From contig OX359249.1 in NCBI GenBank assembly GCA_947179485.1, positions 54,323,402 through 54,387,401 on the forward strand: a stretch of DNA of 64,000 nucleotides, read 5' to 3'. Positions within the stretch are counted from its first letter, which is position 1. Each line of letters starts with the position of its first letter. The DNA is from Allacma fusca. Its lineage: Eukaryota > Arthropoda > Collembola > Symphypleona > Sminthuridae. Shown here piece after piece: positions 770 to 64,000 of the stretch. The translations under genes and the position numbers were made by a program. Under the pieces are notes generated by a model that was given only the letters and a program-made list of their open reading frames with translations, made no database searches and was not told where the DNA came from.

Positions 770-914
770 TTTTTAAATTCTCAGGAACTTTTAACTTGTA
801 ATCAAACGTATCTCCGTTCGACATTTTGAAATGAAATGAAAAGTTTTATTCAACTACAGCATTATTTAAAACAATCCCAAAAATTTATTTTAATACTTAT
901 GTTACAATTTGTAA

Positions 915-3900: not shown

Positions 3901-3985
3901 GTGTTGTATTATTAGGGTGGTCAAAGTTACACATGGATTTTTTACATTTATCTCCTTCAGAACACATAGAAGATAGGGTTAACAA
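915..3985 (-). pseudogene. Polinton-type protein-primed DNA polymerase B, decayed and interrupted
   Basis: Minus-strand fragments in changing frames follow the order of a Polinton family-B polymerase. The N-proximal piece (3985-3725) contains PCGYSYVIEG. Next comes a Cys/His segment with CYFCKFEFTY and HHDHITNT followed by IPVFFHNLNFD (3716-3306), part of the exonuclease region. Then come LDPAHYLGFPGF and RGGITTTM (3230-2854), a further piece at 2826-2431, and a segment with MCDTDSLVY, matching the catalytic DTDS motif (2144-1830). The C-terminal part, with SFDSKRYWITK, resumes at about 1315-915 beyond a MITE. Several frameshifts and stops rule out function. It is an old genomic copy and is described as it stands. 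Confidence 0.8.
1317..1829. mobile_element. pogo/Tc1-type MITE inserted in the polymerase relic
   Basis: The ends are near-perfect inverted repeats of 23 bases (two mismatches), starting CAGTAAAACCT at the left and ending AGGTTTTACTG at the right. Both are flanked by TA (1315-1316 and 1830-1831), the target duplication of Tc1/mariner/pogo elements. The 513-bp interior has no coding capacity and holds repeated TTGACTATTCGG-like phrases. The polymerase reading resumes on the other side, so the MITE postdates the Polinton. Confidence 0.8.
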
Positions 3986-4033
3986 TTGTTAACAATCTGC
4001 ATATACAACAACAGATTGCTTTAAACTCCGATT

Positions 4034-4419
4034 GGGGTCGGATTTTCGTAAATCTCCCTGGAAAATTATTTATGAATTTCCCTGCTGACTATTATCTCCC
4101 TGCTGGTAGGACCTCAACGATTTCAAAAATCCCTGCTGATAATAAGGTCAACGATTTTCAAAATCCCTGTTTCCAAAAAAAATCCCTTAAAAGACGTGAA
4201 ATCCGTGCCTAACTTGGCCAATCAAGCCAAAAATTCCTGTTTACATAACAAATTTCCCTGAAACCCGTCAACAAATTTGAAAATCCCTGCCAAAAAAAGG
4301 TTAACGATTTTAAAAATCACTGTTCGTAAAAATAAATCCCTTCCCTTTGAGATTTTCCCTGCCAGAAATATTTTTTCCCTGGGAAGATTCTTCCCGTCTT
4401 CCTACAAAATTCCGACCCC
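4034..4419. mobile_element. Short element with GGGGTCGGATTTT ends, copy 1
   Basis: The ends are inverted: GGGGTCGGATTTTCGTA at the left and TACAAAATTCCGACCCC at the right. The interior is a degenerate array of phrases such as AAATCCCTGCTG and GGTCAACGATTTT. Fuller or partial relatives lie at 47951-48289, 23800-23960 and 28650-28950. No clear target duplication is visible here. The CAGGGG...CCCCTG ends of the 47951 copy suggest a non-autonomous hAT. Confidence 0.6.
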
Positions 4420-4469
4420 TTTAAGCCATCGAGCAATCACATAAAATATATGTACCTGAATGTACTTAG

Positions 4470-5574
4470 CAGAGCTGCGTTCAAGTCAAGTTATTTTGGA
4501 TAACTTGACTTGAACTCGACTTGAAAAATTGTCTAAACGAGATATCCGCACTTGTGCTTGATGAATCAAGTTTCTCAAGTAACTTAAATATTCAAGTACC
4601 CGATTTTCAAGTTCATTTTGTAGAACTTGAACTTGATTAGAACTTGACGTTCAAGTTGGACACACAACTTGTACTTGAACTTGATTATTCAAGTATTTTT
4701 TTCGTAAATGAATAAACCATACTAGAAATTGCGTCCACAAATATATTATTACAGCTGGTAATAGTTAGGCCGTAATTAGGATAAACAAAACGGCATGCGG
4801 ACAATGTTCTTTACTTTAAAATTGCTAAAAATTTTAAAATACATGATCAAATAAATTTTAGCGTTGTAGTCTAATTTACTAATTTCTATAGTTAACAGGT
4901 TAGCAATCATATTATTGGCCTGTTCACATTATGTTGCACTCGTTTGGTGAGATTAACCAGCAGTTATAATCATGAATATTTGCCGTCATTAATTTTACTT
5001 AACCAATTTTTATTTATCAGATTGGTGTTCATCTGCGCCATCATGTTTAATATCAGCAAAAATCATTCTTACAGGGAATAATAAATTGCTCTTATACTTC
5101 TTGTTAGCTTCAGAACAGGTGAACTAAACAATCACTTCATTTTTATGATGGAACAAAGAACCCCGAGTATCAAGAACATTCTTATACAAAAATAAGTCGG
5201 GACTTTTAATTATTCAAAGTATGGAAACGGGACACAAGAATTCTTCTCGATCTCGACCACTGGGCTTCGTGGAGGCGACTTTAATGCCGATGGAATAAAA
5301 ACAAACACAAAGATGTTATTATTATGATGATTTGCATTCAATATTATTTTTAGTGGGATGCAAAGGTGCCACTAATTACGCAATGCTTACATTGCTTTTT
5401 AGTGACAAAAATCCAAGTTATACTCAAGTTTTATTCAAGTACTTCCATTCAGTGTACTTGAACTTGACTTGATTTTGCTATCAAGTAATAAATTATTAAC
5501 TTGAACTTGATTGAACTTGAACTTGAAAATTCAAGTTAAAATTACAATTTCACTTGAACTTGAACGCACCTCTG
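4470..5574. mobile_element. hAT-like non-autonomous element with TCAAGT-rich arms
   Basis: The ends are inverted repeats, CAGAGCTGCGTTCAAGT at the left and ACTTGAACGCACCTCTG at the right (one mismatch in 17). Both arms are filled with degenerate AACTTGA/TCAAGTT phrases, leaving a non-repetitive centre at about 4700-5400. The architecture matches the element at 49603-50802, which has a perfect 8-bp duplication. Here the flanks (GTACTTAG and TATCCTAT) do not match, so the edges may have been altered. There is no transposase. Confidence 0.6.
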
Positions 5575-5579
5575 TATCC

Positions 5580-7050
5580 TATATATTCGCCTTCATACAA
5601 TTAAAGCGTGTTCTCGTGCTGCCTACATATATGCCTATATGGCCGCGTGTATGCAGGCGTGCATTTCCTATTTAATAGTCATTTTGTCTGCGAAAACCAT
5701 TGCACCCTATTTTGCCTATACTTTTTTCTGAAAATAGCTCGCACCCTATGGGCTTACAAGTAGGCCTACATGTAGGATAGGCTAGCATCTTTGATCTGAG
5801 CATATATACGTACGCGCATTTTGATTAGAGGCAAAGCCGTTCAGAAACTAATTTGTACTAGTAACAAAGTAGACCATTGCCATTACTAATTACAGGTATA
5901 CCCATGCTATTTATCCCCTGCGTGACTTCAAAAATTAGTTACAAAAAGACCATTTGGCTTTCAAGGTAACTTGTTCGTAGTTCGTTTTCCATGACGGTTA
6001 TGTCAAGCCTTCATTTTTTGAAATATTTTTGAAGTGATATCTTGATATTATTTTAACCAAGTCGTTTTTTATAGCCACATCCGCCTCTCCTTGCATTGAT
6101 TTCCAGTCGAATCGGACGGGACAACTCTGGGACTCAATTATTGCCGCAGTGTTATTGCAGGACAGGATGCAATCTTCTGTGGAACACAAAAATTGTTCCC
6201 CACATAAGCTATAGTCGTTATGAAAGCAAGTTACCCCACCCACAAGCAAAAAGGTCCAGAGAAACCTTTCACTACTAATTTGTGAAAACACCTAGTGGAC
6301 AAGCAGTTTGGGTATATTAAGTGAAGTGATAGGCTTTGGCTCTATTCAAATTACGAGTGCGTATTTATGCAGATCAAGAATGCCTCGAGACCATTTTGAT
6401 TATGCTCAAAGGTTCTTCTTAACTAGTACCATGTTCTGACGGTTCCTTTGGCTTGCTACTTTAAGCAGGTCTTGTTGTGTAGTCACGAAAATTCCCTCCG
6501 AAATTCGACTGTATTTCTTGAATTTTATCGTGCCAGCCCTGACTCCTCCTCGAATTTTTACATGAATTCTCCTACGTGCATGAAGAATTTTTGGAATGTT
6601 TAGGAGCTCGCATCTTAATGGTATTTAAACCAAGTAACCAATTTGTATTTCCTTATAGGATTAAACATTTTAAATGGATCTCTTTCAGAATGACATTTGT
6701 ACTAGTGTTTCTGTTCGATATCGTGAATTCCCGAATTCTCTATTTTTCGTACCATTCACTTCAAAAAAATATTTCCCCCTATAGTTAGCTAAGTAAACCT
6801 ATATGTGTAATAGGCAGTCACCTAGGTCTGAAGGTAATCTAAAGGTGTCTGCCTATTACACATGTAGGTGTATATATGTAGGTATATATAAAAATAATCA
6901 CTCCGAAATCCGACTGTAGTTGAATTTCAATTTCAACTACAGTCGCTACTAATTTCGCCCTCCATCAACCTTTTATCAAATGCATTTTCTGTTCCTCCGA
7001 GTAAGTCCACTTTTTATAATAAGCAGTTATAAGAAAAGTGATTTTTTTTC
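5580..7050. repeat. Relic interspersed repeats: (tgcctat)-rich patch and an approximately 650-bp repeat unit
   Basis: 5600-5800 is a degenerate run of TGCCTATAT and GTAGGCCTAC phrases, as also at 10800-11000, 11290-11720 and 21780-21980. From about 5920, landmark phrases (ATCTTGATATTATTTT, CCAGTCGAATCG, GACGGTTCC, GTGCCAGCCCTGA) recur in the same order at about 9290-9930 and 9900-10540, so this is one copy of an old repeat unit. I see no supportable gene; the open frame at 5998-6291 on the minus strand lies in this repeat. Confidence 0.5.
6806..6872. repeat. Imperfect hairpin in the relic repeat
   Basis: The phrase TGTGTAATAGGCAG is followed about 35 bases later by its reverse complement, CTGCCTATTACACA, giving a stem of at least 14 pairs. 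It may be the paired ends of a tiny MITE of the (tgcctat) family. Confidence 0.45.
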
Positions 7051-7059
7051 TATTTTAAG

Positions 7060-9260
7060 AAAAAAGAGAAAAATGTGAAATTGAGTATTGGCCGATCCAC
7101 AATATGGCCGATCAGGATGCTGACAGAAACTTGAGATCATTAATTCAAACTGCTAGAGACAATTTCTCATTGCTGAATCCTGAAGATAGTCGTTGGCCCT
7201 GTCATTTTTGCGAACAGCTTTGCAAAAGCAAAGGAGGATGCAGAGGACATATCACACGACCACATCAAAGTCAAAATCGAGCATATATAGCAAATGAAAT
7301 ATTAGAAGAAGAAATTGTTACTGCCGCACCTGCCTTCAGAGAAATTTTGAAGAATGAGCTTCTAATTATTTTACGAATGAATGACCTTCTTATAACCAAT
7401 GAAAGTAATCATGTGATATTTGAACAAATTCTTTCATTATACACAATAACACTTCATAAATGTGAGAAAGAATTACCAGGTCCAGAACATCCGACCAAAA
7501 CGTTTTATAACATCCGAAAATCAAAATGCTTTCAAACATTAGACAATGGTTATGACCACTCTACTAACCCTCAACGAGCAACAAAGCGTAAAAGACAAAA
7601 ACGAAGAGCACAATATGATAGAGAAAAGATGCAGTGGTTATATTATAATCTAAGAAATAAAGCTGTAAACCAAATTATTAAAGACCGAAAAGACCAGGGA
7701 TGTACAGTCGAACTTGATCAACTGTATGATGAATTCTCTACAAGATGGGAGACACCCAATGACAAATGTAGACCAGCTTCAAATCCTGTTAATCAAGATG
7801 AGTAAAACAAACTTGACGAAGAATTCGATATTATTGTAGGTGAAAAAGAAGTTGCATTCCAAATATGCCGGCTTAATTCAAGAACTGCAGCAGGTAATGA
7901 TGGAATACATTCACGATGGCTTAAAGCAACAACGACAGAATCTTCAAAGATCCTTGCAGCAGTAACTACATACATGCTGAATTTTAATTTTGTACCGGAA
8001 TTTATGAGGGAAGCAAGAACTGTACTGATACATAAAGGTGGAGATGAGAAAAATCCAAAGAACTTTCGTCCCATCACAATTTGCTCTTTAATTAGAAGAG
8101 TAGTGGAAAAAGTGCTAGATTTTACAAATCCCAATATCAACACCGGATTCAATGATTTATGCTAATACTAAAGTGAAAGGTCTAGGAATTATAAAGGCAT
8201 CTTGGGAGGCATTTATACAATGATATAATGCAAGTGAACATTTACAAAATTGTGGTGTACAAGTTCTTTCACAAGTTCGAGATCTGGAATTAGAGAAACA
8301 ACTTTGTCTGTCGAAACTTAATCTTTCAGAAGACTTCAAGACTACCCTGGAACATTTAAAACCGAGCCAATTATACATGGCAAATAGATTGGATGTTTCA
8401 TCGCTCCCATTGCCATCTACAGAATCTCAAACAACTGTCACTAAACAAATTAAGACGTGTAAACTAATACGAAATGAACTCCAACGTTTAGAATACGAAA
8501 AATGGTGTAAACTTCCTACTAAAGGACAAGGCGTCATTCAATACTCCGAACACACAGCTGCCAATAAATGGATAAAAAGCAAAGCCGGCCTTTCAACATC
8601 GGAATGGACGAATGCAATTAAAATGGCTACAAATGTTTTGCCAGTAAAAACCAACCCCGGATACAGCCAAGGAAATAGCCGTTGCCCGAGGGGGGAACTA
8701 CTTCGAAACAATAGACACCACAGCATTCGCTCACTTATAGCTTCTAAACTAAAAGAAACAGGCTTAAGAGTTGAGGAAGAAATATACTGTATAGACAACA
8801 ATAATACAAGTAGAAGAGCAGACATTCTTGTCTACGACCACATTACCAGGAAGGGATACATAATAGACCCTACAATTAGAATGGAACAAGACCTCCATCA
8901 AGCGGACAATGCCAACTACGAGAAAAAATCTATTTATGATCCATGCATACCTTACTTCCAAAGTAAATTTAATTTACGTGAAATGGAAACAATAGGATTG
9001 TATATAGGTGCTCGTGGAACAATTTAAAAATTTTTTGTAAAATTTCTAAAAAGATTTAGAATTTCAAATACTGTTATCGATGAAGTTGTAGCAATAGTGC
9101 TAAAAAGTGGTGCTTTAATATGTAATAATCATTTATATAGAAATTCATAACACATTATACTATCAAGTATGATATAATACACTAGGAAATAGTATACTGA
9201 GTCAATGTATGGCTACTTCTGTTGAGAAGCAGTGTCAATAAAGTCTTTATATATATATGT
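7060..9260 (+). mobile_element. R2-type LINE, copy 1 (internally deleted)
   Basis: The element spans a short 5' leader, a decayed coding region (7104-9027) and a 3' UTR ending GAAGCAGTGTCAATAAAGTC at about 9250, followed by a short (TA)n stretch. The same 3' UTR ending occurs on the minus strand at 16765-17026, which fixes the 3' end of the family. It interrupts the old repeat units that lie on both sides. Confidence 0.8.
7104..9027 (+). pseudogene. R2-type reverse transcriptase/endonuclease polyprotein, decayed
   Basis: From the ATG at 7104 the protein starts with a C2H2-type finger (CHFCEQLCKSKGGCRGHITRPH region, about residues 32-53), a basic linker (KRKRQKRRAQ), then a TAA at 7803. The same frame continues with the first RT block (AGNDGIHSRWLKA and NPKNFRPITICSL) up to about 8150. 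There the reading jumps to a C-terminal part, so the catalytic RT blocks with the DD pair are missing. The C-terminal domain (8377-9027) carries RADILVYDH and GYIIDPTIRMEQ, the restriction-like endonuclease (PD-D/E-K type) of R2-class LINEs. The CCHC knuckle just before it has been deleted. Several stops confirm it is dead. Confidence 0.8.
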
Positions 9261-27000: not shown

Positions 27001-27974
27001 TGGTACCATACCCCAGAATAACACCCTAGACCCATACCCCAGAACCATACCCCAGAATAATACCCTAGAACCATACCCCAGAACCATACTATAGAACCAT
27101 ACCCCAGAACCATACACCAGAACCATACACCAGAACCATACACCAGAATAACACCCTAGACCCATACCCCAGAACCATACCGCAGAATAATACCCTAGAA
27201 TCATACACCAGAACCATACCCCAGAACCATACCCCAGAACCATACCCTAGAACCATACCCCAGAACCATACACCAGAACCATACACCAGAAACATACACC
27301 AGAACCATACCCCGGAAACACCAGAAACATACACCAGAATAATACCCTAGAACCATACCCTAGAACCATACAGCAGAACCATACCGCAGAATAATATCCT
27401 AGAACCATACACCAGAACCATACCCCAGAATAATACCCTAGAACCATACCCCAGAACCATACCCCAGAACCATACACCAGAACCATACACCAGAACCATA
27501 CCCCAGAATAATACCCTAGAACCATACCCCAGAATAATACCCTAGAACCATACCCCAGAACCATACCCCAGAATAATACCCTAGAACCATACCCCAGAAT
27601 AATACCCTAGAACCATACCCCAGAATAATACCCTAGAACCATACCCCAGAATAATACCCTAGAACCATACCCCAGAATAATACCCTAGAACCATACCCCA
27701 GAATAATACCCTAGAACCATACCCCAGAACCATACCCCAGAACCATACACCAGAACCATACACCAGAACCATACCCCAGAATAATACCCTAGAACCATAC
27801 CCCAGAATAATACCCTAGAACCATACCCCAGAACCATACCCCAGAATAATACCCTAGAACCATACCCCAGAATAATACCCTAGAACCATACCCCAGAATA
27901 ATACCCTAGAATCATACCCCAGAACCATACCCCGGAATAATACCCTAGAACCATACCCCAGAACCATACCCTAA
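27001..27974. repeat. 13-bp/26-bp minisatellite
   Basis: Basic 13-bp units CCATACCCCAGAA, CCATACACCAGAA and TAATACCCTAGAA alternate in ordered and variant combinations, giving a 26-bp higher-order unit over most of the right half. The array is nearly 1 kb. Several minus-strand frames of repeating Tyr/Gly/Trp/Val composition are by-products of the period. Confidence 0.95.
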
Positions 27975-40071: not shown

Positions 40072-42923
40072 TTTTTTTTTTTTTAGGGTTGAAAAGGTCA
40101 TGATTTATTAACCGAACATAGAAACTTTACAACGAATCAATGACTAAATGTTATTAGCATTAACGTATATAATAAACATTTAATGAAGTATTCACAGACA
40201 GCGAGACGAATTTTCGTAGGGGTGCTCATCTTAAGCATCCACTCAAAACAGTATATTAGGATTGTATGACCATCCGCCACTGTTTGCTTCCAGCTTGCAA
40301 ATGGTCTGATTATTGTTAAATTTAGAGTCTAATGTCTATGCTCTCACTATTTGCTCGAATTGCAAATTGCAAACAGTCCCAGTAGATAATAAATCGACAT
40401 AAAGTACCATTTGATTTGTGCTGAAAATAATCAAGGTAAATTATTTCAAATAGTTTCTGGCACAAACGGTTTTTGGGTTTAGTTTGAATAGGGGCCTTAT
40501 TGAAGACCAGATATATGTCCTCATAAATCACTGCATAGCACGCATTTAGTACATGCAATAGGCACTTGTTATGTATATTGTAGGTCTGACAGCCTTTTGA
40601 CTTGAAGTCTTCTTCCCAGCGGAGACCCGCTCTTTCTAGTAGCTTGCTGGCATATGACCACATATCATTAAAGAAGGGACACATTACATAATGTTTTGCT
40701 AGAGGATTTATCTTGTGGCAGAATGGACAATTTTTATGATTACTTAATCCCATTTGGAGAGCCATTGCAGGAGTACATAGGGCTCCATGCCAAATTTTCC
40801 AGGTGATTTCCTCTTCTTTGAGACTTTTGCAGAGCTTAAGATTTTGCCATGGATGTAGCTTCATCTTGGAAATTATTTCAGAGTTAAGTCTGAAAGACGA
40901 TAATTTCCAAAGACATTCCGAATAAAGCGTCTTAGTGCTAATGTGTACATAACACTGGTCCAAATCATTGAAGATTGCGTAATGTGTAGTACTATCTTTG
41001 ACTTTTAGTATATACCCATACAAATCTTTATATTTACGTTTGATCAGATCCAGCGATCTTCTTTTGTAGGCGGGAAAGTAGGCACTTACTTGAGGGTCAA
41101 TTAGAAGGTCCGCAATGCTGGATATATCCATCTTTCTCAAGAACTGATATTCTTCCGCGGATACGTAATGCTTACAACTTATGGTGTGCATTTCTTCAGG
41201 CGAGATGTTTATAACTATTAGTCTGGTGGTTTTGACACTGTTAGTTATATTTGTGTAAAAACTATTTGTATTTTGAGATTCACCATTTCGTAAGTAATCG
41301 GTTATTATATTTTGTGCCTCTTGCTCGAAGTATGTATTGTAATGACCGTTGTAGTGTACTATAGCTTGACGGACACGGAAAACTTTGATCATGGCGCGTG
41401 GGTTCTTGATATTCATTCCTCCAACTATACTGCTGTTATATATGAACGCTTTTTTCACCCAACATTTTCCTGACCTCCACAGATATGACTCTATTGAGTC
41501 TGTAATTCTACTTAGAAAGTCTTCCGGTGGATCCAAAACTTTCAAACGAAACCATAACACTGGTATAATGAACATGTTAAGAATCTTTGCTCTCATAAGG
41601 AGATTTGCGTTTGGGAATTTGTTTTCATAGAAGTTGATTTTGGACATGAAAGCATTCCACAGTTCCTGCCAATTTTTAAGGGGAAATGTATCATTTCCAA
41701 AGAGAACTCCTAAGATTTTAGTACCAGAAGTGTTTATGGGGAAGTCACAGTTAATGCTTTTTGAAGCCCAGTTACCTAAGAGTAAACAGCTACACTTGTC
41801 ACGGTTAAGTCTACTTCCAGAGAAGAGCATATATAATTTTATTTCATTTTCAACCACTAAGAATTGTTTGACGTCGCTAATCATTATGTGAGTGTCGTCT
41901 GCATATGCTGACAGATACGTTGTGGGCATTCTATTATACGGTGCAGGAGCAATTTTCGAAAGATTTTCAGACAGCCTCAGTAGCATGATTTCACTGGCAA
42001 GTATGAACAACACGCTAGCCACTGGGTCACCTTGTTTAATACCCCTATGCACTTTAATTGGAGCAGTTAGTAATGAGCCCATTTTAATCCTTATGACGTT
42101 GTTGTTGTATAATGTCTGTATGTATGTAATCGTGGAGTCAGGGAAGTTAAGAGTTTGTAGACATGTAAACAGAAATTCCCTGTTTACATTGTCAAATGCA
42201 CTTTCTTGGTCTAGTGAAACTATAGCTCCTTCAGTTATATTATTGGTGGCATCTCTCAGGAAATTTAAGTTATTATAAATAGACCGTCCGGGTACGTTGC
42301 ACGTTTGGTATTTACCAATTAAGCTTCCAATCACAACCATAATTCTATCTTTAATCACTATTGCCATAATTTTATAATCCGTATTGCATAGGCTAATGGG
42401 TCGATAGTTTTTTAAGTTGGCTGGGTCACCTTTCTTGTAAATTAAAGAGATAATTCCGGATCTTAGGGATAGCGGAAGTTCTTTTTGTTTTGTGCATGTG
42501 TTTATCAGCCATAAAATTATATGTTTATATAGTTCGGCAAATCGCTTGTAAAACTCAGCAGTGAGCCCGTCGGAGCCGGGCGACTTTCTTGTTTGAAGTT
42601 TGCCTATTGCACTATTAGTTTCATCTGATGAGTAGTATCTGTCTAAGATTACTTTTTGAACGCCTGTTAACTTGGGTAGCTTATTTAGGTAGTCAGATAG
42701 ACTAGTGTTTAATGGTGGATGTGCGGCATATTTTTCATTAAAAAAAGTCCGAGCATATTCTACTTTGTCAGATTGTGACAGACCCGAAAGTGCACTCTCA
42801 ATGTTTACAGTCATTTTACCATTGGGTAGTTTGGATAATTGCTCCTTTTCAGGTTTCACTCTTATTAGCTCAATCATTTGTTTAAAAGCGTCAGCTTGTG
42901 AGCTAGTTTGATAATTTTGAGTT
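40072..42923 (-). mobile_element. Tx1/L1-type LINE, antisense in an Rbfox intron, cut by the gap
   Basis: On the minus strand the element has a long ORF, a 3' UTR of about 235 bases (40321-40087) and a poly-A tract read as T's at about 40071-40084, marking its 3' end. The coding frame is open into the N run, so the 5' part (endonuclease and any ORF1) is missing from the assembly or the copy. The intact frame suggests a young insertion. Confidence 0.9.
40322..42923 (-). CDS. LINE ORF2 (reverse transcriptase), intact but 5'-incomplete
   Basis: The frame runs without a stop from the gap to 40322; the first Met (42877) opens an 851-residue stretch, and 15 more codons are open before it. RT blocks are in order: KSPGSDGLTAEFYKRF (residues about 98-113), LKNYRPISLCNTDYKI (about 155-170), QTCNVPGRSI, the first catalytic block SLDQESAFDNV (about 221-231), KQGDPVASVLF (about 281-291) and the catalytic YADD (about 325-328). 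A Cys/His knuckle CPFCHKINPLAKHYVMC lies at about 715-731. The set fits the L1/Tx1 superfamily. The apurinic-type endonuclease expected at the N terminus would lie in or beyond the gap. It may encode an active RT if full length. Confidence 0.92.
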
Positions 42924-43123
42924 NNNNNNNNNNNNNNNNNNNNNNNNNNNNNNNNNNNNNNNNNNNNNNNNNNNNNNNNNNNNNNNNNNNNNNNNNNNNN
43001 NNNNNNNNNNNNNNNNNNNNNNNNNNNNNNNNNNNNNNNNNNNNNNNNNNNNNNNNNNNNNNNNNNNNNNNNNNNNNNNNNNNNNNNNNNNNNNNNNNNN
43101 NNNNNNNNNNNNNNNNNNNNNNN
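42924..43123. other. Assembly gap (200 N)
   Basis: Exactly 200 undetermined bases, a conventional gap size, at the 5' side of the LINE. The Rbfox exon that should follow the RRM exons is not found in the flanking sequence and may be hidden here. Confidence 0.99.
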
Positions 43124-43986
43124 GAATATTTAGATTAGATATTTAGACAAAATTATTTGCTTCCAATTTAGCCACAACTGACGCATTGCAAGAAAGTCAC
43201 ATGTGAAAGCATGCAGGCTTACAGTCAAAAGCTGTGTAGTGTAACTCGGTAGATATTTTATTTAAAGTACTATTTTATCATTCAAATGTATTTAAAAAAA
43301 TTAATGAAAAGGCTTAGACAAAGTTGCATTTGTATTTGTATGCATACAAATCAGTAATCGTAAAAGCATTTAACAAGGTAGCTACTAGTTATAAAATCAC
43401 TAATTTCTTAATGCTTTAGTGAGAAAATTAATTTTCCCATGCTATAAATTTTGGAACCAAAGGCAAGGTTATCATTGCCTGTGTCTAATTTTAAGTGGCA
43501 AAGTTTTTCGTCTCTGCTTGTCGTTTGTCATTCTACATTGGAAGTTGCTCACTTACAATGTTACAATTGTAGTCGTGTTGACATCTATAAATTCGCAAAC
43601 ACAATTGACTTTGTTGTAACGACATCCCGCGAACATGAATCCACCGTTATACGTAGCGTGTCTTTACAGAATATAATATTGATAAATGTTACCATTGTTA
43701 ACTCGTTACTACTGCATGCCGTTACATGCATAATAAGTATCGTTACAGAGAGGGGAGAGCCGTCATGCAACTGTCCAACAGTCAATTGTATAGAGTTTAC
43801 AATCACGTTGTTTTTGGTTCCAAGTTTTATAGCAACCGAAAATTATAATTGTCATAAAGTCTGGTTATTTAAAAATTCGTCGTATAATTAAACAGCCTTC
43901 TTTAATTACGAGCAGTGATTTATATGCATACAAAAACAACTCTAAGTTTTTTACTTTTAGTTAATGCTTGATTTGTCTTATTTTAG
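43124..43986. other. Rbfox intron with GCATG motifs and one unassigned open frame
   Basis: TGCATG at about 43713 and a nearby ACATGCAT lie about 250 bases upstream of the next exon, plausible Rbfox sites. A plus-strand frame of 146 codons (43451-43891) is long for this composition but carries no motif I recognise and no evident splice sites, so I leave it uncalled. Confidence 0.4.
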
Positions 43987-48636: not shown

Positions 48637-48861
48637 GTGTACACAAGTGAGTAGGAGTGCGAGTAATAAAATCGCTTCCTATGCTACTCGTCAGCAACGG
48701 TTTTATCCTTGACAGGATTACGCCAAATCGATTGGGATTGGAATGCATCACAACTAATCTAAACGGCTAAATTATTAATGTGTCACAGCATTGCGACCCT
48801 AAAGATTGCATTTTCATGAGAATCACAATATGCACATAATCATTCATACCAAGCATTTTGC

Positions 48862-49124
48862 ACTAGCACGTAAAAACAGGAAGAAGTTGCTCGAAAGTAG
48901 CAGCAGACTTGCGCTTTTCCTCATCTCGGCCGTCCACACAATTGCATTACACTGCTGAAGCCTGAAGCATTCATGAAACATATCTCCGAGCGCGGAGTAT
49001 ATCACTATTTGCTTATTTATGCACATATGGCCAAGTTACTCTAATACATCGCAAACTCAATGTTTACATTTTTACATTACAGATTCCTCAATGGTTTTGT
49101 CTGCTTGAAGTATGTAAATAAATG
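48862..49124 (+). repeat. Left terminal inverted repeat, 263 bp
   Basis: It begins ACTAGCACGTAAAAACAGG and ends TATGTAAATAAATG. Immediately inside lies a possible splice donor (ACTTAAG|GTAAAG, 49175), so transcription into the element from this end is conceivable. Confidence 0.95.
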
Positions 49125-49602
49125 CTACATTTGTACTATTAATCGTCATAATGAGAATGGACTTAAGGTAAAGTCTGTGCTCTTCGTCAAGGGACCAGGT
49201 CACCCTTAAAAATGACCCTTACAAAATATAATAAAAATGAAATGGAACAAATAATTAAAAGCCGTTAAAACTGATTCTAATCCCAATTCGTATGCATTTG
49301 TTACAATAAAAACTCCAATCCAATTTATTCAAATTTTTACCATAAATTCCAGAGCCGCAGTGCTATGCCAGACCTTTTTTACAAAGCCATTACTGTTTAA
49401 GTTTAATGTACATACATACGTACCATAACTGCATATGACTTTATGATTCCCCTTAGTGTATTTAGGGGTACTCTAGTACACAAGATACTTCCATTAACTG
49501 TTTGAGAAGTATCATGCAAGTGGTTTCCCCTGAAAATCTTAGACCCTCTCTAACCCAATATAGAAATTGACTGACAAAATAATTGAGTACCTAGATTGTA
49601 GC

Positions 49603-50802
49603 CAGTGCTGCGATCGGGTCAAGTAATTTCAAAACTTGACCATGAACTTGACTTGACCACGAAACTTCAAGTAATTTTCAAGACACAACTTGAACTTGAT
49701 AACTCGCGTTCGTGTAATTACTTGACTTGTCAAGTTCAAGTAATCAAGTAACTTTTGTAAGACCCGAACTTGATCAAGTAATTAAAGTTCCAAACTTGAC
49801 TTGAACTTGACTTGACCATGACTTGAACGTGACTTGAACTTGACAATTCAAGTTAAGTATCACAAAAAATAAGGCATGACCACAATAAGTCGAACTTACA
49901 TCAGCAAATTATTTCCTTCAGACTGAAAACCAAAGCGCATTCAGAAAACAATTTTACTACTACTTTTTATTTAAAACCATTCGAGGACAACTTTGAGCGT
50001 GTACATAATACAGTAAAATTTCGATATAAGGGACTATACAATTTATAAAGGAATTTCCTTGGAAATGAAAGTTGGGGTCAAATAAATGATATCGATATTT
50101 AATTATAAACTGAGCCATTATAACGGACTTTCACTGTATATCTGACGAGTTTTACATAGTCTCAAGTTTTATTTAATGTTCATGTATGCATATATACATA
50201 TACCTATTTGAGCATTACGAGTATGTATTCTTAATTTAAAATTTAATACTAGTATTTACTTATTTATTAAACGCTTTTTGTAAAGAGCCATCCAAGCTCA
50301 TTTTATACTGGAATTTATTTACACAAGTTGAAACTAATAATTCTAAACAACAATATGAATTATCAAGATAATTCTTTGATTTCATGGAGACGCCGCTGCA
50401 ACAACTAACAATGAGCAACGTCTGGTAAACAAGACCTTTAAAAAACGGACTGTGCAAACAATATACCCTGGACACGACATGAAATTGGATTGTGATTTTG
50501 AAATTGCTTCCGTCCTTTATGGCATGCGCAATCTAAAATTACTTGAACTTGACCATGAAATCTCAAGTTCATGGTCAAGTTTTTTCTTTCCATTACTTGA
50601 CCCTGAACTTGACTTGAGATTCAAGTAAATTTCTCTTACTTGTACTTGAACCTGACTTGTCTTAGAATGTCATGGTCAAGCCGAGTACGTACTTGAACTT
50701 GACCCGAAAGATTCAAGTAAAAAAATTTACCTACTTGAACTTGACCCGAACTTGAACTTGACTTGAAAACTCAAGTATTACTTGAACTTGTCCGCAGCAC
50801 TG
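49603..50802. mobile_element. hAT-type non-autonomous element (TCAAGT arms) nested in the MULE-like element
   Basis: The ends CAGTGCTGCG and CGCAGCACTG are perfect inverted repeats, followed inwards by CAAGT phrases. They are flanked by a perfect 8-bp duplication, ATTGTAGC (49595-49602, 50803-50810). Both arms are degenerate ACTTGAACTTGACC phrases. It is non-coding and 1200 bp long. Confidence 0.93.
50011..50136. mobile_element. pogo-type MITE nested in the hAT element
   Basis: The inverted ends CAGTAAAATTTCGATATAA and TTATAACGGACTTTCACTG (about 15 of 19 match) are flanked by TA (50009-50010, 50137-50138). 126 bp. Confidence 0.75.
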
Positions 50803-50810
50803 ATTGTAGC

Positions 50811-51909
50811 GAATTCATTTCCAGAAATAAAAATGCTTAGGTCATTTTGTCGAGTCACAAAAGTAATGACAAATTGTGTATTGCAACCTGTAGGTTTCAC
50901 AGATGAAATTGTGACGCATTTTCGTTTTTGAATTTATGAGGATAACTTCAAAACTGAATGGATTTTGCCGATATCAAAGCATTCGATGCAATAATCAAAT
51001 GTATTTTGAATACTAACTCGATTACAAATATTTTTGTCGATTTCATATGGATTTATGACTTCTTCTAGGTACATTATATCCATGAGAAGATGAGTCAGAA
51101 GATTGAGTGCAAACAATTATTTATTCATCTTCAGTACTCATTTTGATTATGATCACATTTACGCTTCCACTTCCTTGATAATTAGGGTGCTTATCGATTA
51201 CACATATTTTTGTTCGATTTCATATGAATTTAAACACTTGAAAGAATATATTTAAGAGTACAATAATTCCAATAAAAATACCCCAAAAATACGAATGAAA
51301 TGCCGATTCGAATTCTTATTCCGCCTGGAATGACTAGCCATGGGGACCATACAAGAAAACATTATGTAACAAAATTGGGCTTTCTTACCGCCAATTGCTT
51401 CCCAATTTTTCATAATGATAGAGGAAAATAATTTCTGACTCCACGTGGAAACTAGTGCTACCCATTAATTTATCCATTTTGAGGAAATGGTAATAACTGA
51501 GGATCTATAAATTAAATTCTTAATGATGGACGAAGTCTTTTATCTTCGCCAAGGTACGAGCTCACCCTTAGAAATGTCCCTTCGAAAATATTTTTTGTGC
51601 AGAATGGTGTCTATAAACAAAGTATAAATAATAAATTATATTCTATGATCTATCTATATTTTCATGATTTTTGGATAGTGTAACCTGTGTATAAACAAAT
51701 TGGTCAACATGCAATAAGTAACTGCTTACCCTCTAAAAACGTGGTATTCAAACATACAAATAAAGAAACCATGAATTTCAATCTAGTTTAATATAATCTT
51801 AACCATGATTTTAAACTGAAATTATTTGAAGCAAGACTCAACGAGCCATATATCGATATATATCCATCCAAATTGACCAAATCTAGATTTAATTACTATT
51901 TAGTAGAAA
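50811..51909. other. Interior of the MULE-like element, unassigned
   Basis: A minus-strand frame of 60 codons (50934-51116, with INPYEIDKNICNR) has protein-like composition but no recognisable family. Related phrases, CGATTACA.ATATTTTTGT..GATTTCATATG, occur twice (about 51015 and 51198). 51528-51595 holds a copy of the 65-base subterminal motif. The 3' UTR of the gene to the right must lie at the right edge. Confidence 0.4.
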
Positions 51910-52062
51910 CTACTTCCGTTGTTCTGGCTTTGTAAGGCCACTAATGTTGCGCATGTTCTTATTATAACGCTGATGTTTTCGCCGATTTTTCTGAATAGTC
52001 CGTCCCAATTTCGTTTTTCGAAATTCTATCTGCTCTAGTCGTTTTCGATCTTTTAATGTCAT
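51910..52062 (-). CDS. Unknown transposon-borne gene, exon 5 (terminal)
   Basis: This is the last exon of a five-exon gene of 185 codons. After the acceptor GTGTTACAG it encodes 50 residues, strongly basic (MTLKDRKRLEQIEFRKTKLG, then QKNRRKHQRYNK and NISGLTKPEQRK), ended by TAG. The basic stretch suggests nucleic-acid binding or a nuclear signal (inference). No domain family is recognised. Confidence 0.8.
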   Translation of the reverse strand: MTLKDRKRLEQIEFRKTKLGRTIQKNRRKHQRYNKNMRNISGLTKPEQRK

Positions 52063-52284
52063 CTGTAACACATAATGACAATTTTAATTACACAATATTC
52101 CATGACGCGAGAATATTCTACTCCATGAAAAGTACATAAGCTAGGAATTGGAAGCCATAACAGACGGTTTGGGAAAATCGTTGCAGATTAGTACTACTGA
52201 TGCTCTTGAGATCGGGAGTATATAGATGGCATCTTGTATAAACTAAAATTTGAAAGTAATTGCATAATTGCAGTAGTGCATTAC

Positions 52285-52338
52285 CTCCGAACCATTATCA
52301 CCAGCTTCCCGTTCGCCTTCCTGGCTGCTACAGGTGCC
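52285..52338 (-). CDS. Unknown transposon-borne gene, exon 4
   Basis: 54 bases between the acceptor TTTTTAG and the donor GTAATG, phase 0. It encodes the acidic GTCSSQEGEREAGDNGSE. Confidence 0.8.
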
Positions 52339-52735
52339 CTAAAAATACAAATGTATAAAAATATAGTGCAATGTAAAACACAGTAGAGCAAGTTAAGTAA
52401 CTTTTCGAGGAATATGTTGCTTTGGTATTGTTACATATGTTATTCACTATTCTTTGAAAGTAAATTTTCAAAATTGCGAGTTCGAGTTAACACGTTTAAA
52501 CAACCTGAGAAATGTAATAATGAATACTGTACAAAATAACGAGTATCACAATTCCATACGATTTTCATTGTACTAGTTTCAAATATGTAACGTTGTAACT
52601 CCAACAAATGGTACTCAAATTATTTCAACAGATTGTCTTCTTGAAATATAATAAAGTGCAATTATGTTGTACGCAATGAAAGTATAAATCACTGAACAAA
52701 AATAACGGTGACAAATACATGAAAGAAATAGTTAC

Positions 52736-52957
52736 CTCCTCAACATGATCATCTTCAGGTCCCTCCAGTACTCCTACCTCATGTTGAAAAGTATCCAGCA
52801 AAGTATCACCAGAGGTTGATTCATCCGATTCTTCATTGTGTTCACCAACCTCCCTCTTTACTTTGGTGCGACAGTTCTCCCTTGGATCCACGTAAGCTGC
52901 AGGAGCGTTTGGTGACCACCAGTCAATGGCTTGATGGAACACCACATCTGCACGAGT
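52736..52957 (-). CDS. Unknown transposon-borne gene, exon 3
   Basis: 222 bases between the acceptor TTGGTAG and the donor GTAACT, phase 0. It encodes TRADVVFHQAIDWWSPNAP then AAYVDPRENCRTKVKREVG, followed by an acidic Ser/Glu/Asp tail (EESDESTSGDTLLD, GPEDDHVEE). The WWSPNAP motif could anchor a homology search. No premature stop occurs. Confidence 0.82.
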
Positions 52958-53100
52958 CTACCAATACAAGAATTCATTGAAAACAAAAGTAGCAAAGTAA
53001 CTAGACTGGTCTAACAGTATATAAAATCACCAGGGAAATATTAACAGAAAATATATCAAGTGTAAACCAAAAATAGTTAGCTACTTCAAAATGTCCTTAC

Positions 53101-53196
53101 GAAACGAAGGTTTTGAGGTAGTGGTGGCTGGGTATCTGGAACAAATGGTGGGGGGATCACTGGAGGTTCCTTTGGTTTCCATGAGTAGATGGGCAT
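53101..53196 (-). CDS. Unknown transposon-borne gene, exon 2
   Basis: 96 bases between the acceptor TTTTTAG and the donor GTAAGG, phase 0. It encodes a Pro-rich stretch, MPIYSWKPKEPPVIPPPF then VPDTQPPLPQNLRF. Translation could begin at this Met if exon 1 is skipped. Confidence 0.82.
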
Positions 53197-53543
53197 CTAA
53201 AAATACAAACAAGTACAATGCAACATTACAACATGTGAAATGAATGTGTGAATGTAACGTGTGAAGTGGACCTAATTAATGATTCAATGGCCCCTTTGGA
53301 AAAAAATGAGCGTGGGCCTCCTGCAATTTTCTACGGCCATATATGCATAAACCGCTGTTCCGACTAATGTCGCCCAGTCACATTTTTTAACATTATTTAA
53401 ATAATCATAACTATCTTATTACTACATTGTTTGTGAGGCTCAACAGAATATATCGTTAAAAAATTACGAACAATATCAATTTAGTTTTAATGAAATTTTT
53501 TCAATAAACATTTTACTGAGCCTTAACAAGTTAATGTACTTAC

Positions 53544-53576
53544 TTTGTCTAACAAGTTTGTTTCGGTGTAAGGCAT
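53544..53576 (-). CDS. Unknown transposon-borne gene, exon 1 (start)
   Basis: The ATG at 53576 opens MPYTETNLLDK and is followed by a consensus donor, GTAAGT. Together the five exons (33, 96, 222, 54 and 153 bases) make 185 codons plus stop, with every intron in phase 0 and 143-397 bases long. Upstream, TTCTATAG could be the acceptor of a leader intron whose donor (ACTTGAG|GTAAGG, about 53894) lies just inside the right terminal repeat, which would make that repeat the promoter. The gene fits no family I know. It may be an accessory gene of the transposon or a captured host gene. Confidence 0.75.
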
Positions 53577-53913
53577 AATTAAAACCGTATAATATCTATT
53601 AATTCTATAGAACACTAGAACACTTTGACAAAGAAAATACAATTTCAAGTTGAAGAAAACTAAAAAGTTGTACATCCGCTATGGTCCAAGCAATTCGCTA
53701 GAGTGGATAAGAAATAGCGATGCATCATAACTTCGCGCCACATCAACCATCAACCATAACGATATACATGAATAGTTTTTTTTATTTTTATAATTTTATG
53801 GTTATAAACAACACGTAAAGTTCGACAAAAAAACTTTTCGCAAAGGGAATTTCTTAGGGTGGCCTGGTACCTTGGCCAGGATCGGAGCCCTTACCTCAAG
53901 TGCACCATGCAGT

Positions 53914-54176
53914 CATTTATTTACATACTTCAAGCAGACAAAACCATTGAGGAATCTGTAATGTAAAAATGTAAACATTGAGTTTGGGATGTATTAGAGT
54001 AACTTGGCCATATATGCATAAATAAGCAAATAGTGATATACTCTGCGCTCGGAGATATGTTTCATGAATGCTTCAGGCTTCAGCAGTGTAATGCAATTGT
54101 GTGGACGGCCGAGATGAGGAAAAGCGCAAGTCTGCTGCTACTTTCGAGCAACTTCTTCCTGTTTTTACGTGCTAGT
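53914..54176 (-). repeat. Right terminal inverted repeat, 263 bp
   Basis: Reverse complement of 48862-49124 with three substitutions. It probably contains the promoter and first exon of the internal gene. Confidence 0.95.
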
Positions 54177-54185
54177 GCATTTTGC

Positions 54186-54999: not shown

Positions 55000-55440
55000 T
55001 ATGGTTGGCGGGGATGTCAACGATTAGTAAACACGATTAATGATTACTAAGTATTAATCATAAATCGTTAATTTAGTAAGCTTGGATTTTTTGAAAGAAT
55101 CGTTAATTGTAATAATCAATTAACCGTTTTCAAAAATCAATCATCAATTGAAATCATCAATTAACCGTTTTCAAAAATCAATCATCAATTGTAATCACCA
55201 CTTTACCGTTTTCAAAAATCAATTATCAATTGTAGTAATCAATTGACCGTTTTCAAAAATGAATTATCAATTGTAATAATCAATTTACCGTTTTCAAAAA
55301 TCAATCATCAATTGTAATCATCAGTTTACCGTTTTCAATAATCAATCATCAATTGTAACCATCAGTTTACCGTTTTTAATAATCAATAATCAATTGTAGT
55401 AATCAATTATTAAATTATAAATCATTAATCGTTCATTGTA
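55000..55440. repeat. Degenerate tandem repeat of about 43 bp
   Basis: Units containing TTTACCGTTTTCAAAAATCA and ATCATCAATTGTAAT recur about eight times with many substitutions. Confidence 0.8.
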
Positions 55441-55469
55441 AATGAAATTCAAAATTTAGCAAGAAGTAT

Positions 55470-56030
55470 TTTGTAATCGGAAGTGTAGATTTAACAATAA
55501 GTAATTTGTAATCGGAAGTGTAGATTTAACAATAAGTAATTTGTAATCGGAAGTGTAGATTTAACAATAAGTAATTTGTAATCGGAAGTGTAGATTTAAC
55601 AATAAGTAATTTGTAATCGGAAGTGTAGATTTAACAATAAGTAATTTGTAATCGGAAGTGTAGATTTAACAATAAGTAATTTGTAATCGGAAGTGTAGAT
55701 TTAACAATAAGTAATTTGTAATCGGAAGTGTAGATTTAACAATAAGTAATTTGTAATCGGAAGTGTAGATTTAACAATAAGTAATTTGTAATCGGAAGTG
55801 TAGATTTAACAATAAGTAATTTGTAATCGGAAGTGTAGATTTAACAATAAGTAATTTGTAATCGGAAGTGTAGATTTAACAATAAGTAATTTGTAATCGG
55901 AAGTGTAGATTTAACAATAAGTAATTTGTAATCGGAAGTGTAGATTTAACAATAAGTAATTTGTAATCGGAAGTGTAGATTTAACAATAAGTAATTTGTA
56001 ATCGGAAGTGTAGATTTAACAATAAGTATC
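55470..56030. repeat. 35-bp satellite, about 16 near-identical copies
   Basis: The unit, GTAATTTGTAATCGGAAGTG plus TAGATTTAACAATAA, repeats without visible change until a broken last copy at about 56025-56055. More worn related phrases (ATTTGTAATCG) continue to about 56190. Confidence 0.95.
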
Positions 56031-56189
56031 TAATTTGTAATCGGTGTAGATTTAAGAAGTAATGTGTAATAATTGTAATCGTAACTGAATTTTTACTAAA
56101 AAATAATTTGTAATTGAAACCTAACCTAACTTCAGTAAAAATTAATTTGTAATCGTAACTGATATTTTAGCAGAAAGTATTTTGTAATC

Positions 56190-56730
56190 GCAATCATCAA
56201 TCACTTTGTTCATAAAGTAGCCATTAATCTTAATATATAATACGGAATTCGAAACGGGACAGTTTTTTAATAATTTGTCTCGCCTGATGATGTTAAACAC
56301 GTCAAGCCCGAAAACTTGCGCATTATAAACTTGTAAAAAACTAATTTACTTTAAAAAGATACCTGTAACCATATAAAATAATTATTTTTGTTGCTGTATC
56401 ATATGCAGTTACTACTTACTACAAGTTCGTAGTAATGATCTGATTGTAATCATTCAGTTGAGCGTGTTTTCTGCGCTTAAATTTATATTAAATGATTGCG
56501 TGGTAATATATAGAGAAAAATGAGGGTGCTCAGTGTGGACGTATTTTCAAATACTCCGTTAATAATAATCCGAAAATAGAAGCAATTTTTGGATTCTGGA
56601 AGTGCTAGTGGGGTCATTGCAATCCGAATTCAGGTTTCTTTGCCGTGAGACTACTTTAGTGAACATTTACCATTTATTTGGCGAATTATACAGATAAAAG
56701 TGATCTCTTGGAATAAAAGTCATCGCAGAA
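56190..56730. other. Unassigned interval, probably including the LINE 5' UTR
   Basis: AT-rich with no gene. The part nearest 56730 should be the 5' leader of the LINE that follows; its 5' boundary cannot be set. Confidence 0.35.
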
Positions 56731-58364: not shown

Positions 58365-59641
58365 TCAACTATCTTCTGGTTGGCTACATCCTCTAGCTTC
58401 ACTGTTGACCACAGTATCTTTGGAACATATTTGCCTTCTGGTACAGACATCTCCAGTTGGAAGCATTTTTACCCATCGCACGCTACGAGTACAAGTTGGT
58501 ATCTCATGATGGCTATTCCATGGTACATCACAGAGTGGAGTTATATTATTTTTAGTTAACTCTTCTGTTGCTATTGCCCTTCCAATCATTATAATAATGA
58601 TCATGGTGGTGGCTAGTGCTGGTCTTGCTCTTCCTTTCCTCTGAATAGCCTTTAGTGTTTTTTCACAATAAAGTAACTGTCTATACGCTCTTTGGTAACT
58701 TGTGTTAGTAAACACATAAATCAGGTGGTTTAGGCAGGGAGAGCTCCAAGTTAGGGCTGAACTGATTTTTTGAAGAACATAGGGTAGTTTCTTCTCTCCT
58801 GGATTCATGACAGACGAAATCAGCGCTGGTAAGTAACACAACATATAACAACACACTGAAATTGTTACACTTTTTGTTAGTTGATTTTCGGCTGGGCTGG
58901 TTTCGAGGTCCTGAGATGTTGGCACTTGAGGTAATCGATTCATGTGTACTCTGATTGAACTTTTAACTTCTCTTACGTAAAATAGGATTGCAGAATAGCA
59001 ATAGATGGTTGCCAGAATGGGTCCGATTATTCCTATGGACACTAGAAATGCATTAGGAGAACTGCCGTGTTGATCTTCGCGAATGGTACAAGAAGGAGTA
59101 GTCCCATTGCGAAGTCTCAATGCCCCCAGATACCTCCGTATGGTAGACACATTAATTACGTACCACCAGATAAGGATTATCGCAATTGTTTTTCTTGGTC
59201 GGAAGTAGTGGTTATATTTGTGGTTACGCACTATACAAATGTACCGATTTAATGTTATTGCCATTATTGAGAATAATGAACATGCTAAGTTCCCGTAGAA
59301 TATAAACGATACCAGTCGGCACATAGTAGGATTCCAAATCCAAGTGGCTTCAGTATGTTTTACTGATATTAATGGAAGTTGTATGGAACTAAATAGTACA
59401 TCGACATACTTAGATTCAAAATTAGCCATGTTGCCGATTGTTTCATGAGTTCGGTTGAATTGCATAGAGCGAGTATAGTGATCGAGTTTCCAATGGTTCC
59501 AATAATTGCTAAGATAGAAGCATATATAGCCAAAATGATGGCTGACTTGCCATGAACGTCCCAACTTCCTTTTTCATTCCTTTCCCCTTTCTTGCTGTTG
59601 TACGGTTGCAGGCTAATGTAGCTGGGATCAACCCTAGACAT
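58365..59641 (-). pseudogene. Tre1/moody-like G-protein-coupled receptor with one frameshift
   Basis: Rhodopsin-class receptor of the Tre1/moody type (cell migration and glial barrier receptors in flies). From the ATG at 59641, TM1 carries the GN motif (IIGTIGNSITIL). At 59406-59407, within TM2 (LILNLS / VDVLFSSIQLPL), the frame shifts by one base. Downstream are TM3 with NRY in place of DRY (ITLNRYICIV), typical of this family, the CTI motif of loop 2 (TTPSCTIRED), TM6 (CCYMLCYLPALI), and TM7 with NHLIY, lacking the usual Pro of NPxxY. The frame then runs on about 85 residues, including MIIIIMIG and a Cys-rich tail. It is intronless here, so a retrocopy, a pseudogene or an assembly error are all possible. 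Confidence 0.8.
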
Positions 59642-61162: not shown

Positions 61163-64000
61163 TTAATAATTAAGTTTTGGTTCTTCATCATTGACGGGTA
61201 ATTTTGCAAGTTTTTTGATTGGTCGAACAATTTTTTTTATTATCTTCTTTGGTTTGCCCTTTTCCTCCTTATAGGAGCCTTCGGTTTCGATGGTTGTAAC
61301 TCGAGTTAAACCACCCCGTCTCGGATGTGTTGTCTTGACTCGTCCCATTCTACAGCGGAAGGGTGACAAGGAATCGTCCACAATCAGAACCAAGTCCCCG
61401 GGTTTGACATCAGGTTTCACTGTATGCCATTTTTGAAAACGTTGTAGCGTTTTTAAGTATTCAACTTGCCATCGTCTCCACATCTCGTCAGAACGTCTTT
61501 GAATCAGCTGGAATTTATCCAATCGGTTCATTGGGATTTGAGTGAGGTCTGGTTCCGGGATCCCCATTAGTGAGGTTCCTACTAGAAAATGGGCAGGGAT
61601 TAATGCATTGAAATCCTCTGGATCTGCTGACATGGGAGTTAGGGGTCTGGAATTTACGAGTGCTTCCGTAAAAATGAGAATAGTCTCAAATTCCTCCCAG
61701 TTGTAAGACTCGTGATCGAGTATCTTCTTTAAATATGTCTTCACTAATTTAACGCACGACTCCCAAGCCCACCGTGGTGTGGTGCCTGTGGTGCGTTAAA
61801 ATGCGGATTAACATGATCTAATTGAAGGTCAGGAAGAATCTTATCCTGAGCATGCTGGAGTTCGGTCATCATTTCCATGGTTGATGTCATGTAATTTTTT
61901 GCTCCGACGAAGTTCAGTCCATTGTCTGAATACATGTCCTTTGGCCTTTCTCGTCTGGACATGAATCGTCGCAGGGCTAACAGGAATCCTTCGTCATGGA
62001 ACTGACTAATTCTAAATCAATAGCCCCAGTGGCTAGACAAGTAAACAAGCATATCCAAACGTTAAATCGCCCACTTTGATTGCCCGAAAAGTTCTTTAAT
62101 TCATAGGGTCCAGCATAATCCACTCCTGTGGCTAGAAATGGTCTAGCTTGTTGGACTACTCGGTAGGCGGGATACATAGCCATTTGTTGCTTCATGGTTT
62201 TTACTGTGAAGCGATAGCAAAGTATGCACTTATCGATAATACCCTTTATGACTCGGTTTCCTCCATAAATCCAGTATTTCTGTCGGAGGTGATTCTATGT
62301 TGTACCATGTCCAGCATGAGCCAATGTTTGATGGACTTGTAAAATCATTGACTTTACCACTGGATTTTCTCCAGGTAATATAGCGGGATGTTTACTAGAG
62401 TAGGTTAGATTTGAATGGCGCAGTCGTGCTCCCACTCGCAAAATTTGTTGCTGGTCCATGAATATGCATGTATGGTTTCAAGTGCTTATCTTTACTTTCC
62501 TTGGGCGGTTGGCTGGTTAAATCTTGAATAATTTTCCAAAAATACTTGTGTTGTAGTATTTTAACGAGATGATCTTCTGCCGTACTTAGTTCCATTGGAG
62601 TAACAGGGATGTTCCAATGAATTTTGAAACCTTTCTTGGATTTTATACGTTCCAAGAGTGTCATAACACGTAAAATCCTTTCCCAAGAAGAGATATTTTG
62701 AAGCTGGTCCAGTCTATCGGGTAGTTCATTTTTTGCAGAAATGGCCAAAATGGTTCGTTTTTCTTCCCCTTTGGTATCCGTGACGGATTCCAAAGTCGAA
62801 ACGACATGTTGGACGTTAGAAAGCCATGAGGGTCCACTCCACCGCAACGGATGCTGGGGCAATTCTTATGGGTGAATACCTCTCGACGCACAATCTGCGG
62901 GATTATCTTCCGATCTCACGTGATGCCACTGGGTTGAATCCGATATATCTTGAATCTGTTGAATCCTATTGGCCACGTATATTTTCCATTTGTTTGGCGG
63001 AGAATTAATCCAATGTAGTACAATTTTTGAATCGGACCAAAAATGAGAATTTTCGATTTTGATATCCGAAGTTTTCTTAACATGTTCCATAAGTTGTGAC
63101 AGGAGTACTGCACCCTGTAACTCTAATCTTGGCAAGGTGAGCACCTTAATTCGAGCGACCCTTGTTTTGGCTACCACTAAGCGAGTGGTAATTTGCTGAT
63201 CGCGTCTATCTCTCAGATATACACAAGCAGCATATTCCTCTTCGCTGGCATCTGCGAAACCATGTAGTTCCCATACTGATTCTTGGTTATGATGTAAACT
63301 TCTTGGAATTTTAATCTGTTCGATGTGTGGCAGATTAGTTTTGTATTCCATCCAGGCGTCTTGAAGGTCTTTGGGTAAGGTCTGGTCCCACTCCATATTT
63401 TTAAGCCATATTCCTTGCATAAGTATTTTGGCCTTAATAATGGTTGGAGCCAACCATCCAAGAGGGTCATATATTTTCGATATTTCTGACAGAAGACTCC
63501 GTTTGGTGCGTGACTCTCGACTATCCAGAGAGAGTTTAAATTAGAAGTCATCCGTTGCAGGATTCCATTTCAACCCGAGGGTCTTCACCGTATCTGATTC
63601 ATCGATGCTCAACGGGAGTTGTGTTTCTCGGTAGTCCGGTGGCACATTTTCGAGTAATTTTGTTGAATTGGAGCTCCAATTTCGAAGCGAAAAATTTGCA
63701 GTGGCCAGCATTCCTATTAGCTGTTTGAAGTTGCACAGCAATTTTTTCCGACTCGCATGATGTCATAAAGTCATCCATATAAAAATCATTAGTTACTGCC
63801 TTTGTAGCCTGCGGATATGCATCCCTTTCATCCTGAGCTACTTGTAGTAGAGTGCGACAAGCTAAAAATTGAGCTGGGGACGTACCAAAGGGAATGACAG
63901 TCATCCTATAACTTTTTAGTGGTTGGGATAGACTTGGTCTCCAAACAATACGGCAGTAATCTCTATCCTCGGGATGTACTAAAACTTGTCGATACATAGT
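61163..64000 (-). pseudogene. BEL/Pao LTR-retrotransposon pol polyprotein, decayed, continues past the window edge
   Basis: Read on the minus strand from 64000. RT is represented by MYRQVLVHPEDRDYCRIVWR and the catalytic FYMDD. After a frame change comes a linker (63741-63541), then RNase H with HGFADASEEEYAACVYLR, LPRLELQGA, FWSDSKIVLHWI and NPADCASRG (63453-62866). Integrase follows, with TGVDYAGPY and YSDNGLNFVGA (62195-61750); the reading breaks at HHGG, where the catalytic Glu should follow. The C-terminal DUF5641-type domain (FQKWHTVKPDVKPGDLVLIV, 61744-61163) ends at TAA. At least four frameshifts or stops make it inactive. Domain order RT-RNase H-integrase with this C-terminal domain is diagnostic of BEL/Pao. 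Confidence 0.9.

Follow-up and report, generated by a model that had tools for sequence, protein, structure and literature searches.

Mutator-like elements (MULEs) with a second gene have been reported in maize, yeast and Arabidopsis and among a small number of arthropod elements, and the roles of these genes are mostly unclear (available sections of PMC6446971, the source also for the next two sentences). The maize element MuDR (mudrA, mudrB) combines long inverted ends and duplications of the 9-bp class with a transposase and a second gene, mudrB, of unclear function, and the arthropod MULEs Ghost and Spectre have two open reading frames (ORFs), the extra ones being of the RING and C2H2 zinc-finger kinds. 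The MULE-like Rehavkus elements, listed there with one ORF, encode a PHD finger, make 9-bp duplications, have ends of 26-400 bp and carry a minisatellite ahead of their 3' end, a trait that the literature gives for aphid Phantom elements as well. The Muta elements of Aedes aegypti are animal MULEs whose duplications measure 8-9 bp and whose ends are often long, and they have many deletion derivatives moved in trans; in the available part of PMC5225508, Muta1 and Muta5 are described with a transposase gene only, and the derivatives carry host fragments. Animal counterparts of Pack-MULEs have already been described (PMC5225508; PMC8277862, in extract), among them the Pack-TIRs, whose inverted ends enclose host sequence and no transposase. 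A 2026 survey of arthropod MULEs presents complete elements as having a single ORF, and counts two ORFs in six species into the transposase length (excerpted text of PMC13359780). Here we analyse a 5,315-bp element at positions 48862-54176 of a 64,000-nucleotide stretch of the genome of the collembolan Allacma fusca (C5:54323402-54387401; hereafter the window). In our judgement it likely belongs to a two-gene MULE family as a non-autonomous copy with an internal deletion, and the gene it carries is the second gene of that family, a putative helper.

The family compares with these systems as follows. It shares with MuDR the possession of long inverted ends, the class of duplication and the presence of a second gene, but here the second gene follows the transposase on the same strand and opens at a splice acceptor. 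It has two genes where Ghost and Spectre have two ORFs, and unlike their extra ORFs the window protein matches no zinc finger in Pfam. The animal setting, the duplications, the long ends and the deletion derivatives, presumably mobilised in trans, recall Muta, whereas the cargo of the window copy is neither a transposase nor, as in the Pack-TIRs, host sequence: it is the family's own second gene. Unlike the Rehavkus entries, the family has a PF10551 MULE transposase.

The gene in the window is on the minus strand. A model of five exons, 558 bases including the stop and 185 codons, with GT..AG introns all in phase 0, had been proposed in a sequence-only reading of this DNA, and it is present as proposed. 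We searched the species' own 393-Mb, 91-contig assembly for relatives (loci named L below), which bear on each exon:

53544..53576, minus strand: 3' end of the leader exon (earlier exon 1); donor kept in L009, L011 and L013, ATG not kept
53101..53196, minus strand: exon 2, probably the first coding exon; ATG directly after the AG acceptor
52736..52957, minus strand: exon 3, which encodes the WW..NAP..YVDPRE segment and the acidic stretch; homologues in L011, L013, L021, L045 and L046
52285..52338, minus strand: exon 4; a 54-base homologue in L013
51910..52062, minus strand: last exon, basic C-terminus; homologous exons in L013, L045 and L046

The exons have a GC content of 46% overall, against 28-35% in the introns. 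The ATG of exon 1 is ATA in L009, and there is no ATG at this place in L011 and L013. The GTAAGT donor of the same exon is kept in all four copies (window, L009, L011, L013), and exon 2 opens with ATG right after AG in seven of the eight loci seen (window, L011, L013, L021, L045, L046, L048), its start being disrupted in the eighth, L043. Because the first ATG is not conserved, while the donor and the exon-2 ATG are, we take exon 1 to be a leader. The exons and splice sites of the earlier model stand, but its count becomes, probably, a leader plus four coding exons, with translation starting in exon 2 and yielding a protein of 174 residues.

The association of this gene with MULEs is most direct in L011, an 8.2-kb element (650-8870) with ends related to those of the window copy. 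A leader donor at ~1925 is followed there by a frame of 629 amino acids and then by exons 2 and 3, all on the same strand. The frame matches PF10551 (E 6.1e-14; C2H2 matches are below the cut-off), which places a MULE-type DDE transposase between ends of this family and bears out the label 'Mutator-like' given from the letters alone. A SWIM-like CxC..CxH pattern was seen by eye in the transposase tail but is absent from the Pfam matches up to E 1. The second gene is also carried by L013 and L021. The sequence-only reading had suggested looking for other copies with these ends; copies with related ends are found, L011 holding both the gene and the transposase.

The association is also seen across the genome. 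Two queries with the small protein gave 26 loci at E<=0.01 (rows above E 0.01 were dropped); these and the other locus counts are lower bounds, as only the best candidates were scored in the searches. In 20 of the 26, a same-strand transposase match lies within 12 kb upstream of the gene, and in 15 of these 20 within 2.2 kb. No locus (0/26) shows the other orientation relative to the transposase (chance 0.0006 per locus). A looser count, with one query and all rows to E 10, gives 19/28 loci. These results support the proposal that the gene encodes a new accessory protein belonging to an animal MULE-like family, and not the one made beside it, that a host gene was captured as in an animal Pack-MULE. 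Animal Pack-TIRs do exist (PMC8277862, in extract), and six of the 26 loci lack any match to a MULE transposase within 12 kb. One of these six is the window itself, however, another (on contig C12) lies behind other transposon-like ORFs, of the PHD type, and four, at C5:1612395, C5:50256939, C9:8487024 and C9:38883763, are uninspected. Since the homologues follow the MULE transposases of several families (some only 51-63% identical), in fixed order and on a fixed strand, we regard the gene as borne by the element; capture from a host is very improbable, if short of full exclusion as far as a host ancestor is concerned.

More distant families bear on a further explanation, that the exons once formed the 3' part of the transposase gene and outlasted the deletion of its catalytic part. 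The transposase search gave 78 matches, joined into 40 loci, among which nine stop-free frames of 844-901 codons have 51-63% identity. We fetched the downstream DNA of three of the nine (L045, L046, L047). Behind the transposase of L045 (63%) are MPKYVWRP.., KKKDVVHVRTLNWWASNAPPYVDPRE.. and a basic last exon; behind that of L046 (51%) are MQRYVWIPKEPP.., EKLDIIVEKEIDWWASDAPYPYIDPRE.. and again a basic last exon. The second gene does lie directly downstream of the transposase on the same strand, and a phase-0 GTAAGG seen by eye in the transposase tail of L011, L013 and L026 is a possible donor, as this explanation would have it. Yet the long frames of L045 and L046, whose last residues look similar by eye, stop 603 nt and 898 nt short of exon 2, the ATG at the acceptor is kept in nearly all loci seen, and the leader donor is conserved. 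An origin as transposase exons is thus unlikely, and a separate second gene is the reading we prefer.

The separate gene also shows traces of selection. The ratio of nonsynonymous to synonymous change (dN/dS) of the window copy is 0.31 with L013, 0.24 with L011 and 0.42 with L021, and that of L013 with L011 is 0.25. The synonymous sites are saturated in the comparison with L045, and the two shifted frames of the window-L013 pair give dN > dS. In this pair, constraint is clear in the core of exon 3 (9/25 synonymous vs 5/86 nonsynonymous sites changed) and in the last exon (11/21 vs 6/67), and weak in exon 4 (3/11 vs 10/43) and in the tail of exon 3. The homologues have lesions: one base is lost from exon 2 in L011 and one from the last exon in L013, and L021 differs by one base in exon 4 and contains long insertions. 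Judged from these alignments, the gene was under purifying selection in the past of the family, which says nothing of present selection on the window copy. The model was assembled by eye in an AT-rich region, in which GT and AG occur often, and could have been a product of chance without coding history. This is already refuted: related elements share the protein, its exon borders, splice sites and frame, the window copy has dN/dS of 0.24-0.42 with three of them, and most of its differences from L013 in the core of exon 3 and in the last exon are synonymous.

Across homologues the protein follows the pattern MPxYxW..WW..NAP..YVDPRE..basic end. It has no credible match in Pfam, NCBIfam or the PDB, and no relatives in the scanned viral and prokaryote contigs; a weak Sigma70_ner row (E 0.016) was taken as chance. 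A structure model of five exon-3 homologues is of low confidence (pLDDT 58.8), with a single helix (residues 2-17) and hardly any other structure. We recognised no description of the protein in the literature searched, from which most subscription papers and Repbase were out of scope, so that its absence from print is not shown. L013 (5894-6000) and L021 (4439-7460) seemingly have, by eye, an extra short intron within the stretch that corresponds to the continuous exon 3 of the window; an intron may have been lost precisely from exon 3 in the window lineage.

The window copy is a non-autonomous deletion derivative without transposase: the L011 transposase, used as query, has no match in the window. 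Its match with L009 ends at 53259 and its match with L011 and L013 ends at 53202, just before exon 2, which places the junction between the two:

53203..53259, minus strand: internal deletion junction, somewhere in this stretch

L009 shows the complementary loss, having kept transposase residues 1-208 in two frames and lost exons 2-5.

The ends of the element, its flanks and the sequences between them are the following:

48853..48861, no strand: left target-site duplication, GCATTTTGC, the same letters as 54177-54185
54177..54185, no strand: right target-site duplication, GCATTTTGC
48862..49124, plus strand: left terminal inverted repeat, 263 bp, 3 mismatches with the right arm
53914..54176, minus strand: right terminal inverted repeat, 263 bp, 3 mismatches with the left arm
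49171..49229, no strand: subterminal repeat; its partner at 53828-53882 is inverted and diverged, and one more copy lies at 51533-51591
49603..50802 (within 49595-50810), no strand: nested 1.2-kb hAT-like insertion, perfect 8-bp duplication ATTGTAGC, ends CAGTGCTGCG

The 263-bp arms with three differences and the perfect 9-bp duplication were both part of the sequence-only reading and are confirmed here. The left end has 25 matches in the genome, each arm counted singly, and there is no second copy of the ends or of the gene within the window. The closest relative is the sister copy L009 (on C10), with ends 98-99% identical; L010 and L011 have both ends, more diverged than those of L009, and L013 and L021 have one end each in the fetched stretch. 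Perfect 9-bp duplications, within the 8-11 bp of MULEs, flank all four copies in which both flanks could be compared (window, L009, L010, L011). The inverted repeats are long, as in MULEs: 263 bp in the window and ~390 bp in L011, where the left arm is split by an insertion. The subterminal repeat at 49171-49229 is probably the inner part of a formerly longer inverted end. The ends of the window copy may once have been longer, given the diverged subterminal repeats that lie inward of the 263-bp arms.

The hAT-like insertion does not belong to the MULE: in L009 the site is empty and holds a single ATTGTAGC. Many repeats of the ACTTGAACTTGA type lie inside the insertion. It also matters for the age of the element, which the earlier reading had called a recent insertion. 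The ends are indeed near-identical, but the age is only loosely supported, because identity between the arms of a DNA transposon is no insertion clock, because the pieces common to the window and L009 differ by 2-10%, and because the element already carries this nested insertion.

The anatomy of the element, its family, the deletion, the conservation of the gene and its past purifying selection can be read at the level of sequence; how the parts would work together is a proposal. A full member would consist of long inverted ends, a leader exon, the MULE transposase gene and then, on the same strand, the spliced second gene, starting at an ATG placed exactly at the splice acceptor. One leader would serve both proteins in full elements through alternative splicing, being joined either to the transposase exon or to the ATG of the second gene, giving ..GACAAA followed directly by ATG... 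With the transposase gone, the leader of the window copy would directly precede the second gene. The step of which we are least sure is the function: the small protein may aid transposition by attaching to the DNA of the element or to the transposase, a role perhaps analogous to that of maize MURB. A transposase acting in trans would have moved the window copy, which may itself be a source of the helper only.

Several results weigh against this proposal. An unbroken transposase copy was not found in the window's own subfamily, and the L011 frame stops before the C-terminal part. No second-gene match lies within reach of 20 of the 40 transposase loci, nor of three of the nine long open frames; in one of these three, L047 (of a 57-58% family), the 4.2 kb behind the transposase contain no clear gene match (best profile E 0.05). 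The dN/dS among decayed copies rises to 0.53 (L013-L021) and 0.63 (L021-L011), and constraint is weak in exon 2 of the window-L013 pair (3/23 synonymous vs 7/73 nonsynonymous). Finally, the evidence for a helper role is confined to the place of the gene, its conservation and the composition of the protein.

The gene may extend beyond elements with a PF10551 transposase. The C12 homologue (C12:35513200-35518850, fetched as L048 1-2701 and L049 1-3001) lies behind transposon-like ORFs on the same strand. One ORF of L049 has a PHD finger (PF00628, E 1.1e-7), and the other, DDE-like ORFs have no Pfam match above the cut-off. The PHD finger is a trait of Rehavkus, and as a lead only we call this element Rehavkus-like. 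The window family, for its part, has in common with Rehavkus the 9-bp duplications and ends within 26-400 bp. L045, a MULE by its transposase, also has a minisatellite, of roughly 70-bp units at ~1660-3040, which separates the second gene from the inverted end.

Outside the element, the window contains a long ORF with a match to rhodopsin-type G-protein-coupled receptors (58365-59573, minus strand; PF00001, E 4.5e-26), likely a host gene near the element. There are large minisatellites at 27005-27971 and 55098-56193, the former with 75 copies of a 13-bp unit and the latter with 41-bp and 35-bp units, the 35-bp ones 99% matching. Further matches lie at 40322-43129, 61163-63540 and 3306-3746 (minus strand): a reverse transcriptase ORF (PF00078), Pao-type retrotransposon pieces (PF05380/PF18701) and a weak, below-cut-off match to DNA polymerase B (PF03175). 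Scanning the window for Rfam families and tRNAs gave no hits.

We tentatively suggest, at somewhat less than even chances, that the protein belongs to an unnamed family of helpers common to several animal MULE families and the PHD-finger, Rehavkus-like element. It would be the product of an old second gene that has kept its exon borders and its place in the gene order, and copies reduced by deletion, like the one in the window, may be sources of the helper alone. If the PHD-type element truly shares the gene, this would link that group to MULEs independently of the transposase. A small protein of this kind would be a concrete component to add to, or remove from, transposition assays. If a second gene is spliced, constrained and fixed in place across several MULE families of this animal, annotation of these elements as single ORFs would miss part of their gene content.

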